Below, one piece after another: positions 6,776 through 31,097 of a stretch of 32,006 bases of DNA (its first letter is position 1; every line of letters starts with the position of its first letter). The notes beneath the pieces were generated by a model. That model saw only the letters and a list, made by a program, of their open reading frames with translations, had not been told where the DNA came from and made no database searches. Source of the DNA: a virus; IMG/VR virus record IMGVR_UViG_3300013094_000170, positions 1 through 32,006 of that record; one strand, given 5' to 3'. The translations under genes and the position numbers were made by a program.

Positions 6776-7327
6776 ATGAGCTCTCTTAAGAGTTTAATCA
6801 CTGACCCTACCGCGATATTTTTAGATGAAGAAATTGTTGTTATTAATAACTTCCTCCCTGAGGATTTACTTTCTACCCTTTTAGACATTGAAAAAAACGC
6901 CACTTTTGGCGAGTGGACTAGTCGTGCTAATAATCTTGAGGGTCAATGGTATGCCAGTATTCTTCCTTTTGAAGGAGAGGCTGCTGACCAAGTGCGTCGC
7001 CTATGCGACGAGGTTTTTAACTATAACTATACTTTTAAACACCCGATGTTTATACGTCGTCGAAGAGAGTCAGAGGCACTTCTTCCTCATTACGACAACC
7101 AGAATCAAAAATCCTGCGAATGGGGACTTGTTGTCTATCTAAATGATGAGTATGACGGTGGAGAAATCTATTACCCAAATCGCAACATTGAACACAAACC
7201 TGTTAAAAATAGTTTAGTGATACACTCAGCAGGTGTAGATTACACACACGGAGTACGTGCCGTTAAAAATGGAACACGATTGTTTATGACCTTGTGGGCG
7301 TTTTATGACGATACTGAGGGGTTATAA
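6776..7327 (+). CDS. 2-oxoglutarate/Fe(II)-dependent oxygenase, prolyl-4-hydroxylase type
   Basis: A 183-residue protein with the double-stranded beta-helix signature of the P4H-like superfamily. The iron ligands are H105 and D107 in LLPHYDNQ and H158 in YTHGVRAV, and R168 in NGTRLF is the 2-oxoglutarate anchor. VVYLNDEYDGGEIYYPN is the typical strand between the ligands. The enzyme would hydroxylate a peptide side chain or a small molecule, using O2 and 2-oxoglutarate. Phages often carry such genes next to structural or glycan genes. The substrate is unknown. The collagen-like fibres of this phage are candidates, but their repeats contain little proline. Confidence 0.85.
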   Translation: MSSLKSLITDPTAIFLDEEIVVINNFLPEDLLSTLLDIEKNATFGEWTSRANNLEGQWYASILPFEGEAADQVRRLCDEVFNYNYTFKHPMFIRRRRESEALLPHYDNQNQKSCEWGLVVYLNDEYDGGEIYYPNRNIEHKPVKNSLVIHSAGVDYTHGVRAVKNGTRLFMTLWAFYDDTEGL

Positions 7328-7341
7328 GATGGAGCAACTAT

Positions 7342-8067
7342 ATGAAGTTTTATCATTTTGTGCCAACAGACCATGCTGCTCATGATGGAGTTCCAAACCC
7401 TAAGCTAGCAAAAGATGTTATACCTCAATGGTATAAACATGCTGAGATTGCATACGAAGACTCAAACGGCGTGCGTCATAATGGTTTAAAAACATGTGTA
7501 CCCTTCTTAGACGGAATGATTTCTGGGTACATGCTCCTTACATGGACAGATATACATGTAAAAATTCTTGAAGATGGCAGCGTCGATATTAAATGGGATT
7601 CTGAATCTACAAGCAATCCCCTTGCAGAACGTCCAAAAGAAACAGGGCACACAATGCCTCGTCCCGCAGGTCACTTACCTAATCATATGGTTTGGACGCC
7701 TAAATGGGGCGTCAAGTCTCCTCGCGGTTGGAGCACGTTGTTTACTCATCCTTTTAATAGATTTGATTTACCTTTTACAACAATGTCTGCGCTTGTTGAC
7801 AGCGACAGGTACTACGGCTCTGGAAATATCCCCTTCTTCATAAAAGAAGGTTTTGAAGGCACTATTCCTAAGGGCACTCCTTATGTCCAGCTTATCCCAG
7901 TAAAACGCGCTAAATGGACTGCCTCAGTGTACGACCCTGCCTTGTACCCTCATATCGCTCGTACTGGTAACCTTGTTCGAGGAAGAGAGCGGGGATACTA
8001 CCGAGATGTTTTCTGGGTCAAAAAGGTCTATAAATTGTTAACTAAGGGAGCAAAAAATGCGCGATAA
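7342..8067 (+). CDS. conserved phage protein, DUF6065-like
   Basis: A 241-residue protein. Recognisable blocks are IPQWYKHAEI near residue 30, LKTCVPFLDGMISGYMLLTW at 49-68, GWSTLFTHPFNRFDLPF near 130, and the late strand YVQLIPVKRAKW. Together they resemble DUF6065-type proteins (CxPfxDxxxxGy, then GxSxLFThP, then PVxR), thought to have a cupin- or psi-barrel-like fold. No catalytic residues are established for the family. It lies between an oxygenase and a glycosyltransferase, which suggests a linked role in surface modification. Its end overlaps the next gene by 11 bases. Confidence 0.5.
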   Translation: MKFYHFVPTDHAAHDGVPNPKLAKDVIPQWYKHAEIAYEDSNGVRHNGLKTCVPFLDGMISGYMLLTWTDIHVKILEDGSVDIKWDSESTSNPLAERPKETGHTMPRPAGHLPNHMVWTPKWGVKSPRGWSTLFTHPFNRFDLPFTTMSALVDSDRYYGSGNIPFFIKEGFEGTIPKGTPYVQLIPVKRAKWTASVYDPALYPHIARTGNLVRGRERGYYRDVFWVKKVYKLLTKGAKNAR

Positions 8068-8812
8068 CGAAAAGATTGCTATTGGGTGGATTGACCCTGG
8101 AACCGTGTACACGGGCTTTGCAGCCTTCGTATCAACTATAGTTCTTAATCGTCCTGAAAGAATCAGCGATGTGATAGCTGCATCAGGTCCATATCTTTCA
8201 TTAAATAGAAATAAGATGGTAGAAATCTTTCTTAAGTCTGACGCAGATTGGCTTCTTTCGTTAGATAGTGACATCTGCCTTTCTCTTGAATCTTTTGATA
8301 AATTAGTTAAATCCGCAGACTCGCTAGAAAGACCTGTTGTCGGTGGAAAGTACTATGTTCCTTGGGATAATGGTTCTGGAGTAACCGTCTCAGCGGTCAA
8401 ACCTGTAGACCTCAGTGACCACACAGCTATGGGTGTTTGGCTTACACACGAGGAGCTCGCAGCAGGTGGAGAAATCATTGAAGGCCTTCACTCAGTGGGC
8501 ATTGGCTATGTGCTTATTCATCGCGAGGTCTTTGAAGCAATCGCATCAATTAAACCTGAAAAGTATCCTTGGTTTAAAGATGGTTGGAAACCAGAGTGGG
8601 ACACATGGACTTCGGATGACATGTACTTTTGGGAACAAGTGCGAGGTCTAGGAATTAAAATCTCACTCAACGCCGAAGCTACTTCAGACCACTTAAAGAA
8701 CTTTAAGCTTAACGACACTGTTTACTTACAGTCTAATTTGAATTCTCCGACAGCTCATCATCATGAGCACCCTTCCCGCCGTTTATGGTGGTGGGCTGGA
8801 AAAAAGAAGTGA
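8057..8812 (+). CDS. GT-A-type glycosyltransferase
   Basis: A 251-residue protein. It lacks a signal peptide and membrane segment, so it acts in the cytoplasm. Residues 54-75 read KMVEIFLKSDADWLLSLDSD, with DSD at 70-72 as the metal- and nucleotide-sugar-binding DxD. GIGYVLIHREVFEAI and SDDMYFWEQVRGLGIKI match the acceptor-side helices of phage GT2-like enzymes, and TSDH supplies a late metal-binding histidine. It would transfer a sugar from an NDP-sugar to an unknown acceptor. ATG has AAGGGAGC upstream and overlaps the previous gene. The next gene, a sugar dehydratase homologue, may provide the donor. Confidence 0.75.
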   Translation: MRDNEKIAIGWIDPGTVYTGFAAFVSTIVLNRPERISDVIAASGPYLSLNRNKMVEIFLKSDADWLLSLDSDICLSLESFDKLVKSADSLERPVVGGKYYVPWDNGSGVTVSAVKPVDLSDHTAMGVWLTHEELAAGGEIIEGLHSVGIGYVLIHREVFEAIASIKPEKYPWFKDGWKPEWDTWTSDDMYFWEQVRGLGIKISLNAEATSDHLKNFKLNDTVYLQSNLNSPTAHHHEHPSRRLWWWAGKKK

Positions 8813-9843
8813 AGGTTCTCCTAACAGGAGCAGGTGGCTTTGTAGGTCACCACACTCTTGAGCATATTTTAAAAACAACTGATTGGGACGTTGTCTGCGT
8901 AGATAGCTTTCGTCATAAAGGACTTAGCTCGCGACTTCGTGCCGTATTCGAAGCTAACCCATCAGAGCGCTCTAGGGTAAGCGTTGTTACTCACGATTTG
9001 CGCACACCTATTGACCACATCACAGCAAAGGAGATTGGGCATGTGGACGTCATTATCAACATGGCTTCGGAGTCGCACGTTGACAGGAGTCTTCTCGAAC
9101 CGCGTCATTTTGTCACTAATAATGTTGCTCTTGTTCTCAATATGCTTGAGTTTGCTCGCAGCTTGGAACGTCTCTCACTTTTCATCCAGATAAGTACTGA
9201 TGAGGTTTATGGACCCGCTAAACACGGTGACCACCCCGAATACGACCCTATCCTGCCTTCTAACCCTTATTCAGGTAGTAAGGCTGCCCAAGAAGCCATA
9301 GCTATCTCTTACTGGCGTTCCTACAACCTTCCAATCGTTCTCTCTAACACTATGAACATCTTTGGAGAGAGGCAGGATGTTGAAAAGTTTATTCCTAAGA
9401 CTATTAGTAACTTTCTTCAAGGAAAGCAAATGCCTGTGCATGGAGCTGTGTCAGACGGGAAGTTTAAATCAGGCTCCCGTTTCTACCTGCATGCCAGAAA
9501 TCAAGCGGATGCTCTTACCTATGTTATAGATGAACATCTTAAACATCCTATTCGTTTTTCAGAGGGACTTGAACGCCCACACCGCTTTCACGTCGGTGGT
9601 GAGCTAGAAGTTTCAAATGAGGATATGGCAATTATGATTGCTGACCACATGGGGATTAACACTGCTATGTGGGAGCCTATTGAACGAGTAGATGTTGGTA
9701 CGACGCGACCAGGGCATGATTTACGATATGGCCTTGAAAGAAAAACTTTAGAAGAATGGGGCTGGATATCTCCTGTTTCTTTTGACGAGTCTTTAAAAAA
9801 GACCGTTTTGTGGACATTGGAAAATCGTGAGTGGCTTCACTAG
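8809..9843 (+). CDS. NAD-dependent nucleotide-sugar dehydratase/epimerase, RmlB-like
   Basis: I choose the GTG that overlaps the glycosyltransferase stop (GTGA) because the product then begins at the first Rossmann strand, MKVLLTGAGGFVG. It has 344 residues, close to the usual length for dTDP-glucose 4,6-dehydratases. Visible motifs are GAGGFVG (7-13) for NAD, ESHVDRS (88-94), STDEVYG (129-135) and YSGSKAA (154-160) with the catalytic Y-x3-K. The D131-E132 pair is the one that distinguishes 4,6-dehydratases from plain epimerases. The product would be a 4-keto-6-deoxy sugar nucleotide. The exact substrate cannot be told from sequence alone. Confidence 0.8.
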   Translation: MKVLLTGAGGFVGHHTLEHILKTTDWDVVCVDSFRHKGLSSRLRAVFEANPSERSRVSVVTHDLRTPIDHITAKEIGHVDVIINMASESHVDRSLLEPRHFVTNNVALVLNMLEFARSLERLSLFIQISTDEVYGPAKHGDHPEYDPILPSNPYSGSKAAQEAIAISYWRSYNLPIVLSNTMNIFGERQDVEKFIPKTISNFLQGKQMPVHGAVSDGKFKSGSRFYLHARNQADALTYVIDEHLKHPIRFSEGLERPHRFHVGGELEVSNEDMAIMIADHMGINTAMWEPIERVDVGTTRPGHDLRYGLERKTLEEWGWISPVSFDESLKKTVLWTLENREWLH

Positions 9844-10504
9844 GTTCTATCACCTTCACATTCCAAAAACAGGGGGTCACTATGTTAGGGACAAAATAAC
9901 CTCGTTTTTAGTAGAGCCGTTGGTTGCTGCAAATATTGAAAATATTGTCGCTCATTCTGGATGGAACTATGTCACTGATACCACTTACGTTTTCTCCGCT
10001 TTCAGAGACCCTATAAAAAGGACGGTCAGTCATTACTGCCATCATGTAAAGTTTTTTGAAAACAATCCTGAAAAACCAACGCTTGAAAGTTTTCGTAAGT
10101 GGTGCTTAAACAACTACTCTTTTTTAGCTAACTACCAGTCAAAGTGTTTTCTTTACGAGCAGAAATCGACCGTCCCTTATTTTTATAGAGACGATGAAGA
10201 TTTTCTTGCCATAGACCTTAAAGATAAAGAAGAGCTTTACAGCCGCCTCAGTAGAGTTAACCTTCTTATGAAAGACTCTGATTTAACTGACGAAGTGGCG
10301 GAAAAAGCTGTTAATACAATTCTTACTGAGGTTGGAGCGCCCCATCTTGCTACTAAACCACCGTCCTCAGGACACAACATCAATGAACACTCATCTGCTC
10401 TGTACTCAGAGCTCAAACAAAGTGATGTAGACTTCATCGCAGAGATGAATCGAGTAGATATGGAGATTTACCATGATTATCCAAATTATAGGTCTTCCTG
10501 GTAG
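9827..10504 (+). CDS. PAPS-dependent sulfotransferase-like protein
   Basis: A 225-residue protein with a GTG start inside the end of the dehydratase gene. HIPKTGG (11-17) is the 5'-phosphosulphate-binding loop, and the FRDPIKRTVSHY stretch (59-70) is the 3'-phosphate-binding motif of the Sulfotransfer_2 / heparan 2-O-sulfotransferase group. There is no signal peptide, so it works in the cytoplasm. The next gene encodes an APS kinase domain that could supply PAPS. Acceptor is unknown; a glycan made by the two upstream genes is an attractive candidate. Confidence 0.75.
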   Translation: MSGFTRFYHLHIPKTGGHYVRDKITSFLVEPLVAANIENIVAHSGWNYVTDTTYVFSAFRDPIKRTVSHYCHHVKFFENNPEKPTLESFRKWCLNNYSFLANYQSKCFLYEQKSTVPYFYRDDEDFLAIDLKDKEELYSRLSRVNLLMKDSDLTDEVAEKAVNTILTEVGAPHLATKPPSSGHNINEHSSALYSELKQSDVDFIAEMNRVDMEIYHDYPNYRSSW

Positions 10505-11225
10505 CGGTAAGACAACCTTAGCTGTAGAGCTGGCTAGCCGTATTAATGCTGTTCACCTTAATGCAGACTACGTTCGCTCCACCATTAACTCCGACCTCGG
10601 ATTTTCTCCAAAAGACCGCATAGAGCATGCACGGCGTCTTGGAGAGATGTCTCGAATGCTCTCTAGTCAAGGCCTTGATGTAGTTGTTGATTTTGTATGC
10701 CCTACTGCAGAAACTAGAGCAAGCTTTGGAAAACCAGACATTCTTGTCTGGATGGACACTATCCAAGAAAGCCGTTTTGACGATACCAATAAACTGTGGG
10801 AAGACCCGACGGAGTTTGACTACCATTGGCTTTCTAAGTCCTATGAAGAACAAGCAGACTTCATTATTGAGTGGTCAGAGTTGCACGACTGGAAAGAGCC
10901 TACGACCCTTATGCTTGGTCGCTACCAACCATGGCATGAAGGTCACCATGCCCTCTATAACGAGGCTAAGAAGCGAACAGAGCAGGTGATGCTGGGGGTT
11001 AGGGATACTCAAGGTACCAGCCCTAAAGACCCCCTCTCGTTTGAAGAGGTTAAGGGCTACATTAACAAGGACCCGCATATGGCAAGAGCTATGGTAGTCA
11101 AGATGCCGAACATCACTCATATCGTCTATGGCAGGGACGTTGGATACAAGATTGAGCAGGTTAAGCTAGGGGACGAGATTGAGGCTATTTCTGCCACACA
11201 AAAAAGAAAAGAGATGGGTTTATAG
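10473..11225 (+). CDS. APS kinase-like / nucleotidyltransferase fusion
   Basis: A 250-residue two-domain protein. Residues 1-135 are APS-kinase-like: Walker A GLPGSGKT (7-14), HLNADYVRSTINSDLGFSPK (28-47), and RRLGEMSRMLSSQGLDVVVD (54-73). Residues 142-250 form a small cytidylyl/adenylyltransferase fold: GRYQPWHEGHHAL with H155xxH158, VPNIT-type strand MPNITHIVYGRDVGYKIEQ, and ISATQKRKEMGL (239-250), the ISxTxxR motif. This fusion is known in aquatic viruses. The first domain would phosphorylate APS to PAPS. The second might adenylate sulphate or activate another small molecule. It overlaps the sulfotransferase gene by 32 bases. Confidence 0.75.
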   Translation: MIIQIIGLPGSGKTTLAVELASRINAVHLNADYVRSTINSDLGFSPKDRIEHARRLGEMSRMLSSQGLDVVVDFVCPTAETRASFGKPDILVWMDTIQESRFDDTNKLWEDPTEFDYHWLSKSYEEQADFIIEWSELHDWKEPTTLMLGRYQPWHEGHHALYNEAKKRTEQVMLGVRDTQGTSPKDPLSFEEVKGYINKDPHMARAMVVKMPNITHIVYGRDVGYKIEQVKLGDEIEAISATQKRKEMGL

Positions 11226-11525
11226 ATGAATAAATTTACGTATATCTGGAAAATAGTTAAAGACAGGTGGTTGCGCCCTTACGATGAAATTATTCTAAGG
11301 TTTAACACGAAAGCACAGCCAGGGGACCATCTGGTTTGGAGAGTTTTTGTCAACGGTGTTGAACACCTTGCAAGTGGCTTTTCGATAACTGGCTATGCCA
11401 GCGACATTGTTTCTGAAGAAAATGGCGTAACCAAATGGAATGTTGGCTGCAATGGCAGGGTTCGTTGGAACGGAACAAAGGCAGAGATAATTACACCTAA
11501 GCCACAAAACGATATAATTCTATAA
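11226..11525 (+). CDS. unknown beta-rich 99-residue protein
   Basis: The ATG directly follows the previous stop. After a basic, aromatic N-terminus (MNKFTYIWKIVKDRWLRPYD) the sequence alternates strands (DEIILRF, HLVWRVFVNG, WNVGCNGRVRWNG, AEIITP). No catalytic motif or membrane span is visible. It is the last gene tightly linked to the enzyme cassette and could be an accessory or acceptor protein, but this cannot be shown. Confidence 0.55.
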   Translation: MNKFTYIWKIVKDRWLRPYDEIILRFNTKAQPGDHLVWRVFVNGVEHLASGFSITGYASDIVSEENGVTKWNVGCNGRVRWNGTKAEIITPKPQNDIIL

Positions 11526-11839: not shown

Positions 11840-11901
11840 TTTCTGTTCTCTTGGAGAATAGAGACAACCCCAGTGCACGGGGACTCTCGAGAGAACAGGA
11901 A
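11840..11901 (+). promoter_or_regulatory. long structured leader covering the ribosome binding site
   Basis: The 62 bases fold into one long hairpin. An outer stem pairs 11840-11850 with 11891-11901 (one G-U pair) and can extend inward. Then AGAG (11860-11863) pairs with CTCT (11884-11887), and CCCC (11868-11871) with GGGG (11879-11882), around the loop AGTGCAC. The 3' arm contains ACAGGA, the ribosome binding site of the next gene, so the structure hides it. There is no U-run, which argues against a terminator. It could be a translational switch or an mRNA-stabilising 5' element. Confidence 0.6.
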
Positions 11902-11907
11902 TTAACA

Positions 11908-13083
11908 ATGACAGTAATTCGCGACTCTGGCTACAAGCAAGCCCCTAACGGCAACGTAGCAGTCGACTTCGTGTGGGGCAACATGGCTCCGCAGACAGGT
12001 GACGACCGCGTCACATCTCCTTCTTACAACGCTACAGGCGGAACTTCAGGAAGCACCTCTTACCTAGAGCTTAGCGCAACTGTTACAGCTGCTTCTGCTT
12101 CTGGCGGAACCGTCACATACACAGCAAACAACGAATTCGTTGCTGGTCAGATTGTCACCATTACAGGTCTTTCAACCTCAGCTTTCAACCTCAGCTCAGT
12201 AGTAATCGCCTCAGCTTCTTCAACACAATTTACAGTGACCAACGCTGCCACAGGAACCGCTGTTACAGGCGCATCTGCGACTGCAGTAGTCCCTGCTTCT
12301 ATCATCCCAGGAATTGGTGCTGATACTAACTGGTCAACAACCACAGATATCGCATCTGCAAAGCTCTCAGACAACAACTACACAATCGATGTCGGAGCTT
12401 TCAACGCTTCTGCTCCATCTGATAGCCATGACCAGTGGATGAACAACTGGAACGCATATCCAGCCAACTCACAGCCAACAAAGGCTACAGGCGGATTTAA
12501 CCAGGCTTACACCCTTACAGCTGTTGTCACAGCAGTTTCTGGTAACGGAACAACAGTTACCTATACAGCTAACAACGCGTTCTCTTCAGGTCAGACTGTG
12601 ACCATCTCAGGTCTTTACAACTATGTATCAGCTGGCTCAACTCAGCCAATTGCTACCCAGTACTACGCAAAGACCTACACAACTGCATCAGCATTTAACT
12701 TGTCTGCTGTCACAATCGCGTCTGCGACTCCTACATCATTCACAGTTACAAACGCTGCTTCAGACTCAGCTCTTACTGGTGTTAATGGCGTAGCAGTAGT
12801 TACTGTTGCTGCTTCAAACTCAACAGCTGCAGTTCCTACAGTTACAGGCGTCACCGTTCAGGAAGCAATCCGCTTGCTCGGTGTTGCAGGCTTCAACGTT
12901 GGAACAGTCACCATCCGCAACACAGGTGCTACTGCTGCCAACAACGAGACTGTATACAGCCAGTCACTTACAGGTACACAGACACTTGGCTCAACAGTCA
13001 ACCTTGTCTACTACCAGACAGCTACAAACGAGAGCGAAGCTGCTTCAGCTACAAACGCTACAGAGTTCACTGTCGAAGAATAA
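11908..13083 (+). CDS. virion protein with Ig-like repeats and a PASTA domain
   Basis: A 391-residue protein, starting at MTVIRDSGYKQ, which follows AACAGGA; an upstream in-frame ATG would lie within the leader hairpin and is rejected. Two related beta repeats occur at about residues 53-130 and 200-300 (TVTYTANNxF..GQxVTIxGL, SAFNLSxVxIASAxxTxFTVTNAA). Residues 307-372 form a PASTA domain (PTVTGVTVQEAIRLLGVAGF then NVGTVTIRN). PASTA domains bind cell-wall peptidoglycan in penicillin-binding proteins and Ser/Thr kinases. Codons are regular and the gene ends at a strong terminator, as expected for an abundant product. A capsid decoration or tail protein that touches the wall is likely. Confidence 0.7.
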   Translation: MTVIRDSGYKQAPNGNVAVDFVWGNMAPQTGDDRVTSPSYNATGGTSGSTSYLELSATVTAASASGGTVTYTANNEFVAGQIVTITGLSTSAFNLSSVVIASASSTQFTVTNAATGTAVTGASATAVVPASIIPGIGADTNWSTTTDIASAKLSDNNYTIDVGAFNASAPSDSHDQWMNNWNAYPANSQPTKATGGFNQAYTLTAVVTAVSGNGTTVTYTANNAFSSGQTVTISGLYNYVSAGSTQPIATQYYAKTYTTASAFNLSAVTIASATPTSFTVTNAASDSALTGVNGVAVVTVAASNSTAAVPTVTGVTVQEAIRLLGVAGFNVGTVTIRNTGATAANNETVYSQSLTGTQTLGSTVNLVYYQTATNESEAASATNATEFTVEE

Positions 13084-28719: not shown

Positions 28720-30717
28720 ATGCCACTACTACAATCTTTTGGAAACACTGGTGCACACTCGTATGAGGTAGGTCCTTCGGCTACTCAAGAGCTGCCCAGC
28801 GGTACATTAAAAAATGGTTTAATTCAATGGCATGATGCTGCGGATTTGTCGACATTTGTATACGGAAATTCGTTTACAGTTACGCTATCTCGTTGGATTA
28901 ATAAAGCAAACCCAGGAACTTTGGACTTTCAACAGTCAACCTCGTCTGCTCAACCAGCTCTTATACAAACGGGTATTAACAATCAGCCATCTGTGTATTT
29001 TGATGGAGTTCAAACATACTTAGACTCAGTGGCTGGAACAACACTAACTACAGCGTTTACTGTGATGGTCGTAGCAAAAAGAGCCCCTAACTCTGTTTCT
29101 GTAGCATCATCTACCTATGGTCGCTTTATCTCAACCGCATCTGGAACTGCAAACGATTATGACAACGTCTCTTCAGTAATGATGTGCGACATAGGTCCTG
29201 TAAATGAGGGTGTAGGAACTTGGCACAATAGCGTGACAAGAGGTTCTGTTATTGATGCTGAGAGCACTTTCTCAGCAATGATGCGTCACGACAACGCTTT
29301 AGGATATGGCAACTTTCAACTGCACGGCTCTCCGATTGCTACAGACGCTTCCTGCGTATCTAATGCTGGAGTAAACCGTTCTGTGACTATGACAGCGCTT
29401 ACAGGCAGCTGGTACTTAGGAGCGCACCACTCTGGAGGAACTCCTGGAGAGTATTGGAACGGATACATCTCAGAAGTCCTTATCTGGAATAGGTATCTGC
29501 AAGATTCTGAAATAGCTCAACTCAATAACTACCTTTACTACAAATGGTATGTGCCTCCAGTCATTACTTTTCCTAATCAAAATACATTTAGCTTAAATTC
29601 ATACAGCGGTTCTGCTTACTCATATCAGATTCCTTATCTTGATTTAGGTGGAGCTGCTCCTACATTTGCTATTACAGCAGGAAGCCTTCCTCCTGGAATC
29701 AGTATGTCATCGACTGGTCTTTTGACGGGCACCTCGTCAAGCACATCGCCATACACTATTACTGTATCGATTACAGACAGCTACGGCCATGTTTCTAGTA
29801 AAACTATGACCCTAACTTATGGACTATACAACTTCCCAGTAAATGGCTCTTTTACATTTACTAATGCTGGAGTTGCTGGTCAAAATGGCCCTACGCTTGC
29901 TCAAATTCAAAGTGCATACTCAGCAACTTCGTGGACACAAAGCACAGCTAATCTCAACATGACACAGCAGGGTTACCAACTATGGACAGTGCCTGTTACA
30001 GGAACGTACGCTATTGATGCGTATGGTGCTGCAGGCGGTTCTGGAAAGTCTAGCTACGGCGGTGGTCTTGGAGCTCGAATCTATGGTCAGTTCTCTTTGA
30101 CTGTAGGACAAGTCCTTAAGATTCTTGTTGGACATGTGGGACCTACATCAAACCACTCTCAAGGCTCAAGTTATGGACTAGGCTGCGGTGGTGGCGGAAC
30201 TTTTGTTACTAAATCCGACAACACTATTTTAGTTATTGCTGGCGGAGGCTCAGGCGGAGTAAACGACGCTTGGACAGGTAACGTTGGCGGTAACAACGCC
30301 AGCACAGGTAACAATGGAAACAACAACCCTCAAAACAACGCCTACGCTGGAGGTTCTAACGGTAATGGAGGAAACGGGCCGTACGCAGCTCCTGGAGCAG
30401 GTTATAGCGGAAATGCTCCTACCCCTAGCGGAAACTCTGGAAACGATAACTCCCTTTCATTCTTAAATGGGGGCACTGGTGGACGACAGTCTTTGAGCTG
30501 GGGTGACCAGGGAGGCTATGGTGGATTTGGCGGTGGCGGCGGAGCTGGTGGTCTAGCTACTGGTGGTGGTGGAGGATACTCTGGCGGAGCTTCAGGCCAA
30601 TGGTCTTCTTACGAAGTTGGTGGTGGAGGTGGCTCATACAACAACGGAGCTAACCAGATAAACACTGCTGGAGCTAACGGCGGTAATGGGTATGTCACTA
30701 TTACAAGGATAAGCTAA
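28720..30717 (+). CDS. LamG / Ig / glycine-rich adhesin, putative receptor-binding protein
   Basis: A 665-residue protein. Residues 30-275 are a LamG/concanavalin-type jelly roll (LIQWHDAADLSTFVYGNS, QPSVYFDGVQTYLDS, WNGYISEVLIWNRYLQDSEI). Residues 280-365 form an Ig/cadherin-like repeat (FAITAGSLPPGISMSSTGLL then TGTSSS). Residues 366-665 are a glycine-rich domain with WTVPVTGTYAIDAYGAAGGS, LTVGQVLKILVGHVG, CGGGGTFVTKSD and runs of Gly, similar to the glycine-rich region of ALK/LTK receptors and phage tip adhesins. All three parts are of a sort used to bind glycans or proteins on the host surface. No chaperone is visible. Confidence 0.75.
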   Translation: MPLLQSFGNTGAHSYEVGPSATQELPSGTLKNGLIQWHDAADLSTFVYGNSFTVTLSRWINKANPGTLDFQQSTSSAQPALIQTGINNQPSVYFDGVQTYLDSVAGTTLTTAFTVMVVAKRAPNSVSVASSTYGRFISTASGTANDYDNVSSVMMCDIGPVNEGVGTWHNSVTRGSVIDAESTFSAMMRHDNALGYGNFQLHGSPIATDASCVSNAGVNRSVTMTALTGSWYLGAHHSGGTPGEYWNGYISEVLIWNRYLQDSEIAQLNNYLYYKWYVPPVITFPNQNTFSLNSYSGSAYSYQIPYLDLGGAAPTFAITAGSLPPGISMSSTGLLTGTSSSTSPYTITVSITDSYGHVSSKTMTLTYGLYNFPVNGSFTFTNAGVAGQNGPTLAQIQSAYSATSWTQSTANLNMTQQGYQLWTVPVTGTYAIDAYGAAGGSGKSSYGGGLGARIYGQFSLTVGQVLKILVGHVGPTSNHSQGSSYGLGCGGGGTFVTKSDNTILVIAGGGSGGVNDAWTGNVGGNNASTGNNGNNNPQNNAYAGGSNGNGGNGPYAAPGAGYSGNAPTPSGNSGNDNSLSFLNGGTGGRQSLSWGDQGGYGGFGGGGGAGGLATGGGGGYSGGASGQWSSYEVGGGGGSYNNGANQINTAGANGGNGYVTITRIS

Positions 30718-31097
30718 TGGACCTTATACAAGAGGATAATCACTTTACAGCGCATCAACAAGCGCTTCTTAAAAACGATGTTGTTATAGCTGTGCTCGCA
30801 TTCCCACACCACAGCGATGAGTCTATGCAAGAGGCTTTTGCTAAGTTTGATTACGACACCGTCATAGATTTATGCGATGTCAATAAAGAAGCTTTTCTAG
30901 GCTCTGTGTGGGATGGGACTGACTTTAATATTCAACCGTATCCATCATGGGTATTGAATGAAAAGAAACAATGGGAAGCACCATACCCTGAGCCAGACGA
31001 TGGCAAGGGCCACTGGTGGGATGAGAGCAGAAAAGTATGGGCGGACCCACTGCCGCTTATACCTATTACAGACTCTACGGAAGGTAAACTTGCATAA
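30717..31097 (+). CDS. small fibre-linked protein with PYPSWV motif
   Basis: A 126-residue protein whose ATG overlaps the adhesin stop (TAATG). The C-terminal half reads PYPSWVLNEKKQWEAPYPEP and DDGKGHWWDESRKVWADP. This matches a small protein family found beside tail fibres of cyanophages and other aquatic phages (PYPSWvlnE...WeaPvpmPdD....y.WdE....W). It may be a fibre chaperone or a structural adaptor. The N-terminal 60 residues are helical and acidic. Confidence 0.65.
   Translation: MDLIQEDNHFTAHQQALLKNDVVIAVLAFPHHSDESMQEAFAKFDYDTVIDLCDVNKEAFLGSVWDGTDFNIQPYPSWVLNEKKQWEAPYPEPDDGKGHWWDESRKVWADPLPLIPITDSTEGKLA

Follow-up and report, generated by a model that had tools for sequence, protein, structure and literature searches.

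PAPS synthetases, the human PAPSS1/2 and the bacterial Sat-CysC fusions, carry an adenosine 5'-phosphosulfate (APS) kinase and an HxxH-type nucleotidyltransferase in one chain. In bacterial sulfation cassettes, such as Rhizobium NodPQ with NodH and mycobacterial CysNC with the Stf sulfotransferases, the enzyme that makes 3'-phosphoadenosine 5'-phosphosulfate (PAPS) is encoded together with a carbohydrate sulfotransferase. We analyzed a four-gene block with a similar composition at positions 8057-11225 of the IMG/VR virus record IMGVR_UViG_3300013094_000170. The window, meaning the whole stretch of 32,006 nucleotides that was analyzed, is a 32-kb linear virus record that carries terminase, portal, major head and tail-fibre genes and no tRNA genes. 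The block consists of four open reading frames (ORFs) on the plus strand with successive overlaps of 28, 17 and 32 bases. They encode a GT-A-like glycosyltransferase (GT, 8057..8812, 251 amino acids), an RmlB-like NDP-sugar 4,6-dehydratase of the dTDP-glucose type that belongs to the short-chain dehydrogenase/reductases (SDR, 8785..9843, 352 amino acids), a PAPS-type sulfotransferase (ST, 9827..10504, 225 amino acids, GTG start) and a two-domain protein referred to here as KN (10473..11225, 250 amino acids). The four genes probably form an accessory phage cassette that builds and sulfates a glycan, with KN supplying the PAPS. Compared with NodPQ-NodH and CysNC-Stf, the block is phage-encoded, has a different donor-enzyme architecture and a different sulfotransferase family, and also holds the overlapping GT and RmlB-like genes. 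No report of a phage sulfotransferase-PAPS synthase module was found in the open-access literature.

KN comprises an APS-kinase-like domain (residues 1-140) and an HxGH adenylyltransferase-like domain (about 140-250). It matched phrog_10255, labelled 'kinase', over its full length (E = 1.8e-71) and the Pfam family APS_kinase over residues 2-84 only (E = 4.7e-16). In the AlphaFold (AF2) model, with a predicted local distance difference test score (pLDDT) of 93.9, the kinase part gave Z scores of 15-18 to APS kinases and about 15 to gluconate kinase, and shikimate kinases also scored lower. The residues D32, R35, F44, R49 and P77 were invariant in 128 viral sequences, with the motifs HxGH, GR-VGY and ISxTxxR nearly so, and the same five residues together with the P-loop residues G7, G12 and K13 were invariant or nearly invariant when 24 cellular sequences were added. 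The Asp, Arg, Phe and Arg of this set are presumably catalytic or in contact with APS, roles that we take from what is known of the family. The position of the Asn in the ENxRR motif of APS kinases is held by H, Q or N in KN. Because the kinase positions and the nucleotidyltransferase motifs were essentially invariant in the 128 viral sequences, both halves of KN are under selection. The first-pass annotation had called this gene APS-kinase-like and had proposed structure prediction as a check; applied to KN, the prediction bore out the kinase fold (Z up to 18), as did the conserved APS-contact residues, but the second domain had been missed. Relatives with the kinase and no nucleotidyltransferase domain were also found (L161:3467-3865, L162:2460-2903, L166:3874-4326 and L219:7989-8432), and the KN kinase can therefore also exist alone.

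The C-terminal domain was nearest to NadM-type nicotinamide mononucleotide (NMN) adenylyltransferases, with E values of 2.5e-10 to 2qjt and 4.6e-9 to 1f9a, and carried the HxGH and ISxTxxR motifs of nucleotidyltransferases. Its top Foldseek matches were likewise NMN adenylyltransferase and were weak, and KN scored 24.1 bits against the NMN adenylyltransferase profile PRK01153, which has a curated cutoff of 127. KN has GRYQPWHxGH and YGRDVGY, not the RNPxHxxH and GRDHAG of ATP sulfurylase (Sat/PF01747), and ATP sulfurylase was absent from the profile list and the Foldseek top 50 of this domain, which leaves a distant relation possible. Motif resemblance also brought up a TagD/CCT-like cytidylyltransferase and a Cj1415-type CDP-amidate kinase; both assignments were dropped because the NadM match was better. 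KN thus shares with the PAPS synthetases the kinase-first domain order, but it has 250 residues against about 600, a divergent APS-kinase lid region and a NadM-like nucleotidyltransferase that has no detectable similarity to ATP sulfurylase. A structural alignment of KN with PAPSS1 spanned residues 1-250 at a root-mean-square deviation of 16 Å, so only the kinase part truly matches.

KN has relatives on at least 587 contig stretches of IMG/VR, and isolated phages of Stenotrophomonas, Xanthomonas and Clavibacter encode some as well. To count their neighbours we used 85 non-redundant viral KN loci and local sulfotransferase profiles, which were seeded from the cellular KN neighbours described below (L170, L182 and L186) and from the ST alignment A3 and were run on all ORFs regardless of position. 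A sulfotransferase lay within four genes of KN in 36 of the 85 loci, and its commonest place was immediately upstream of KN (19 of 80 loci). Sulfotransferases made up 20 of 164 ORFs (12%) at a distance of at most one gene from KN and 5 of 607 (0.8%) at six or more genes (Fisher's exact test, p = 2.7e-10). In a Pfam tally, the 124 ORFs no more than two genes from KN gave Sulfotransfer_3 six times, Sulfotransfer_1 six times and Sulfotransfer_2 four times, where the first two counts may refer to the same ORFs. The 25 commonest families among 124 ORFs of these loci at six or more genes from KN included no sulfotransferase family, and 2-oxoglutarate (2OG) oxygenases were about equally frequent near and far (10 and 8); the enrichment is therefore specific. 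Ten previously unchecked profile matches all had a sulfotransferase as their best Pfam family, two of them weakly. As a negative control, the surroundings of TerL relatives held no sulfotransferase in 1,186 ORFs, a weak control because many TerL loci stop short of the accessory region. Neither the assimilation families CysD, Sat and CysH nor NAD genes were among the commonest families in the Pfam tally of KN neighbours.

Mainly because sulfotransferases cluster with KN in this way, we assign it to PAPS supply: judged from sequence, the most likely function of KN is to provide phage sulfotransferases with PAPS, and a role in sulfate assimilation is less likely. The first-pass annotation had considered a sulfotransferase beside its donor-making enzyme to be unusual in a phage, a view that does not hold, as the arrangement recurs across phage contigs. 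We propose that KN and a sulfotransferase form a core module that appears again in many unrelated phages, where the sulfotransferases differ, and that GT and SDR are a local, substrate-building part. The phrog_10255 proteins of the Stenotrophomonas phages Suzuki and DLP_6, Xanthomonas phage AhaSv and Clavibacter phage 33 are full-length two-domain relatives of KN (41-43% identity). In contrast to the clustered loci, the three surroundings examined (AhaSv, DLP_6 and Clavibacter phage 33) had no annotated sulfotransferase neighbours, and KN was near MazG, DNA topoisomerase or 2OG oxygenase genes.

The sulfotransferase of the window carried the 5'-phosphosulfate-binding motif HIPKTGG and the 3'-phosphate-binding motif FRDPIKRTVSH. 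Its match to Pfam Sulfotransfer_2 (E = 6.5e-4, 20.3 bits) was under the gathering cutoff of 22. The family profile A3 gave four matches only against the PDB, all of them sulfotransferases, with a heparan sulfate 6-O-sulfotransferase the best (E = 1.7e-5). Arg60 and Ser68, which belong to the PAPS 3'-phosphate-binding site, were invariant in 12 relatives, and the PKT loop was present in most. The KTGG and RDPxxRxxS motifs of the heparan sulfate 6-O-sulfotransferase HS6ST3 aligned with those of ST, although ST has only 225 amino acids and the profile match is weak. ST was the most variable member of the cassette, with 29-38% identity compared with 60-78% for SDR. The pooled alignment A3 was too diverse to serve as a search query, and tblastn of ST against INPHARED returned no match.

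GT contained the DxD-type motif LDSD and matched the glycosyltransferase family phrog_34859 over most of its length (residues 3-224, E = 3.5e-20). A four-sequence profile of GT and three relatives had as its top PDB match the viral GT-A glycosyltransferase A197 of STIV (2c0n), an archaeal virus, and this match was weak (E = 1.1e-4). SDR carried GAGGFVG (GxxGxxG), STDEVYG (the TDE triad) and YSGSK (YxxxK). It matched GDP_Man_Dehyd/Epimerase (E = 1.9e-43) and the RmlB model TIGR01181 (E = 4.6e-62), in the latter case at 209.9 bits and so under the equivalog cutoff of 365.1. The best PDB matches of SDR were dTDP-glucose 4,6-dehydratase structures (E = 1e-41). The motifs quoted in the first-pass annotation for the four overlapping genes, including GLPGSGKTT in KN, were all present, and the profile and PDB matches agreed with the families it had named for the first three.

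The block was co-linear with the window, in the order GT-SDR-ST-KN, in two related contigs (L037 and L085). These share with the window the upstream genes (5536, 6502, the oxygenase and phrog_7084 genes) and have terminases that are 80-88% identical. The same four-gene order on independent contigs means that the arrangement is not due to chance, and the recurring order of four overlapping same-strand ORFs agrees with the operon-like block predicted earlier. The co-occurrence survey suggested with that prediction thus found all four genes in two relatives but not in the third, L086, where the order is GT-SDR-ST-ST; there, two divergent sulfotransferase genes stand in tandem downstream of GT-SDR (L086:7191-8723). 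The cassette is a patchy accessory block, because other members of the same terminase group do not have it although their loci extend to phrog_7084 (L257, L262, L264, L274, L277, L278, L281 and L298).

In cellular genomes, fused KN adjoined sulfotransferases in three loci (L170, L182 and L186) and lay near genes of surface-glycan type, judged by eye, among them glycosyltransferases and NeuB-like and ABC-transporter-like proteins. In L182, titled as a Euryarchaeota metagenome-assembled genome, KN is directly 3' of the sulfotransferase; this contig is probably a mis-binned alphaproteobacterial or viral one. About 40 small genomes (at most 1.4 Mb), mostly of Pelagibacteraceae, had KN-type genes, and a hand count from tables put Sat in 2, CysD in none and Sulfotransfer_3 proteins in 29 of these possibly incomplete genomes, most of which carry KN as a split kinase-nucleotidyltransferase pair. 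The scarcity of Sat and CysD fits a self-sufficient KN. Some KN match was present in 177 of 198 Pelagibacterales genomes. A genome-level link to sulfotransferases in this order was not convincing, with sulfotransferases, again counted by hand, in 135 of 177 KN-positive and 13 of 21 KN-negative genomes. The split form, two adjacent genes with the kinase before the nucleotidyltransferase, was seen at L197:7995-8773 and in about 150 Pelagibacterales genomes. In SAR11 the neighbours of the split pair were Rieske, FAD-amine-oxidase-like (amine-oxidation-type), peptidase-like or halogenase-like genes. Some SAR11, as at L203:8428-14023, have the nucleotidyltransferase gene apart from the kinase, and a relative of the HalD-like 2OG halogenases follows it (PF23169, E = 1.6e-11).

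In the pathway that we propose for the window phage, SDR would turn a host NDP-hexose, probably dTDP-glucose, into a 4-keto-6-deoxy sugar, and GT would attach a sugar to a component of the virion or to a glycan of the host envelope. KN would provide PAPS, its kinase domain phosphorylating the 3'-OH of APS, and ST would sulfate the glycan with the sulfuryl group of PAPS. A more tentative extension, which we consider possible but somewhat doubtful, is that KN is a compact PAPS synthase of 250 amino acids. Its NMN-adenylyltransferase-like domain, unrelated in sequence to Sat or CysDN, would activate sulfate by making APS from ATP and sulfate, and the fused kinase would complete PAPS. Such an enzyme would let phages drive diverse sulfotransferases, whose targets would be tail fibres or surface glycans of the host, with no need for the host sulfate pathway.

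Several observations weigh against PAPS supply by KN or against its self-sufficiency. KN scored 60.1 bits against TIGR00455, far under the curated cutoff of 138.7, with only residues 2-83 aligned. ATP sulfurylase was rejected as the identity of its C terminus, since hhalign against two Sat sequences (a shallow profile) gave a probability of 1.8 and covered the ISGT motif only. About 58% of the non-redundant viral KN loci had no detected sulfotransferase within four genes, and L086 has the rest of the cassette with KN absent from its whole 30-kb record. The split pair of SAR11 is near-universal and not linked to sulfotransferases, which were found in 1 of 104 adjacent ORFs.

KN might instead be an APS kinase that serves sulfate assimilation only, as an auxiliary 'cysC' gene to increase cysteine synthesis by the host, with the nearby sulfotransferases incidental. 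PMC9611531 and PMC12766990 report viral cysC as a gene of sulfate assimilation, and the kinase-only versions would suit this role. The strong and specific clustering with diverse sulfotransferases, the absence of assimilation families from the commonest neighbours and the retention of the fused nucleotidyltransferase domain and its motifs in the 128 viral sequences make it improbable. The NadM-like C-terminal domain raises another alternative, in which KN is a salvage enzyme like NadR, combines a nucleoside kinase with an NMN adenylyltransferase and serves to rebuild NAD+, perhaps to counter an NAD-depleting defence. The layout is that of NadR with the order reversed. However, the kinase of KN resembles APS kinase rather than ribosylnicotinamide kinase in both sequence and fold, its APS-contact residues are invariant, and its neighbours are sulfotransferases, with NAD genes absent from the commonest neighbour families, so that we regard NAD salvage as quite unlikely.

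The remaining alternatives concern the cassette more than KN. GT and SDR could belong to one pathway and the ST-KN pair to another, such as the sulfation of a tail-fibre protein, sharing only an operon in the accessory region. KN-ST pairs are indeed widespread without GT or SDR of the window type, and in several loci (L018, L033, L039, L041 and others) a sulfotransferase with a phrog_7759 domain stands between a tail-fibre-like gene and KN. Against this separation, GT, SDR and ST are kept side by side in each of the three closest relatives, including the one that lacks KN, and the only confident PDB match of the ST profile is a glycan sulfotransferase; two separate pathways are thus unlikely, if still a serious contender. 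A cassette that acts on a small metabolite or a nucleotide and not on a surface glycan has little probability. PMC10829341 raises the possibility that nucleotides are modified by phage sulfotransferases and glycosyltransferases, and the region often holds 2OG oxygenases, but the combination of an RmlB-like dehydratase, a GT and an HS6ST-like ST indicates glycans, and cellular fused KN sits among genes of surface-glycan type.

Clues to the sulfate acceptor came mainly from other phages. Seven KN-adjacent sulfotransferases (L018:1012-1833, L033:886-1728, L039:509-1348, L041:1788-2627, L046:7157-7996, L022:7144-7998 and L008:2854-3765) start with a phage domain, which was phrog_7759 wherever it was scanned. 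All seven lie between KN and a glycine-rich or repeat-type gene, which gave weak tail-fibre-assembly matches where scanned. This suggests an acceptor on the virion or related to adsorption in the phages with domain-fused sulfotransferases. For the window, the RmlB-like enzyme and GT point to a deoxysugar glycan instead, and the acceptor in this phage may be a glycan of the virion or of the host surface. The window also has a phrog_7759 relative (30717-31097), which is 41% identical over 63 amino acids to the N terminus of L008:2854-3765 and lies directly 3' of the gene at 28720-30717.

Upstream of the cassette, a phrog_7084 gene (7342..8067, plus strand) overlaps GT by 11 bases and is co-linear in L037, L085 and L086; its protein was present in 22 of 86 loci and adjoined GT in all three cassette relatives. 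The gene before it encodes a 2OG-Fe(II) oxygenase (6776..7327, plus strand; PF13640, E = 6.3e-10) and is co-linear in L037 and L085. Directly 3' of KN, at 11226-11525, is a gene for a 99-residue protein; about ten other contigs encode a relative with 62-73% identity shortly 3' of their KN gene. Near the cassette, at 11851-13083, is a gene with an uncertain TTG start for a low-complexity, Ser/Thr/Ala-rich protein of 410 residues that contains internal repeats and matches PASTA weakly, possibly a virion surface protein. The promoter scan of the window found fewer sites than in shuffled sequences, and terminator-like sites were present.

These results move the weight of the finding from the cassette of one phage to a widespread phage sulfation module around the two-domain enzyme KN. 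Viral 'cysC' genes have been reported as assimilation genes, and the KN neighbourhoods suggest that this large family instead feeds sulfotransferases; some ecological inferences on viral sulfur metabolism may therefore need revision. If the adenylyltransferase half activates sulfate, KN is a new sulfate-activating enzyme, and a compact PAPS synthase of this kind would represent a third way in which sulfate activation has evolved, as well as part of an overlooked, widespread viral sulfation system. If phages sulfate their particles or the host surface during infection, this would be a largely unexplored route by which adsorption, superinfection or defence may be altered, and one small protein, KN, makes phage sulfation testable.

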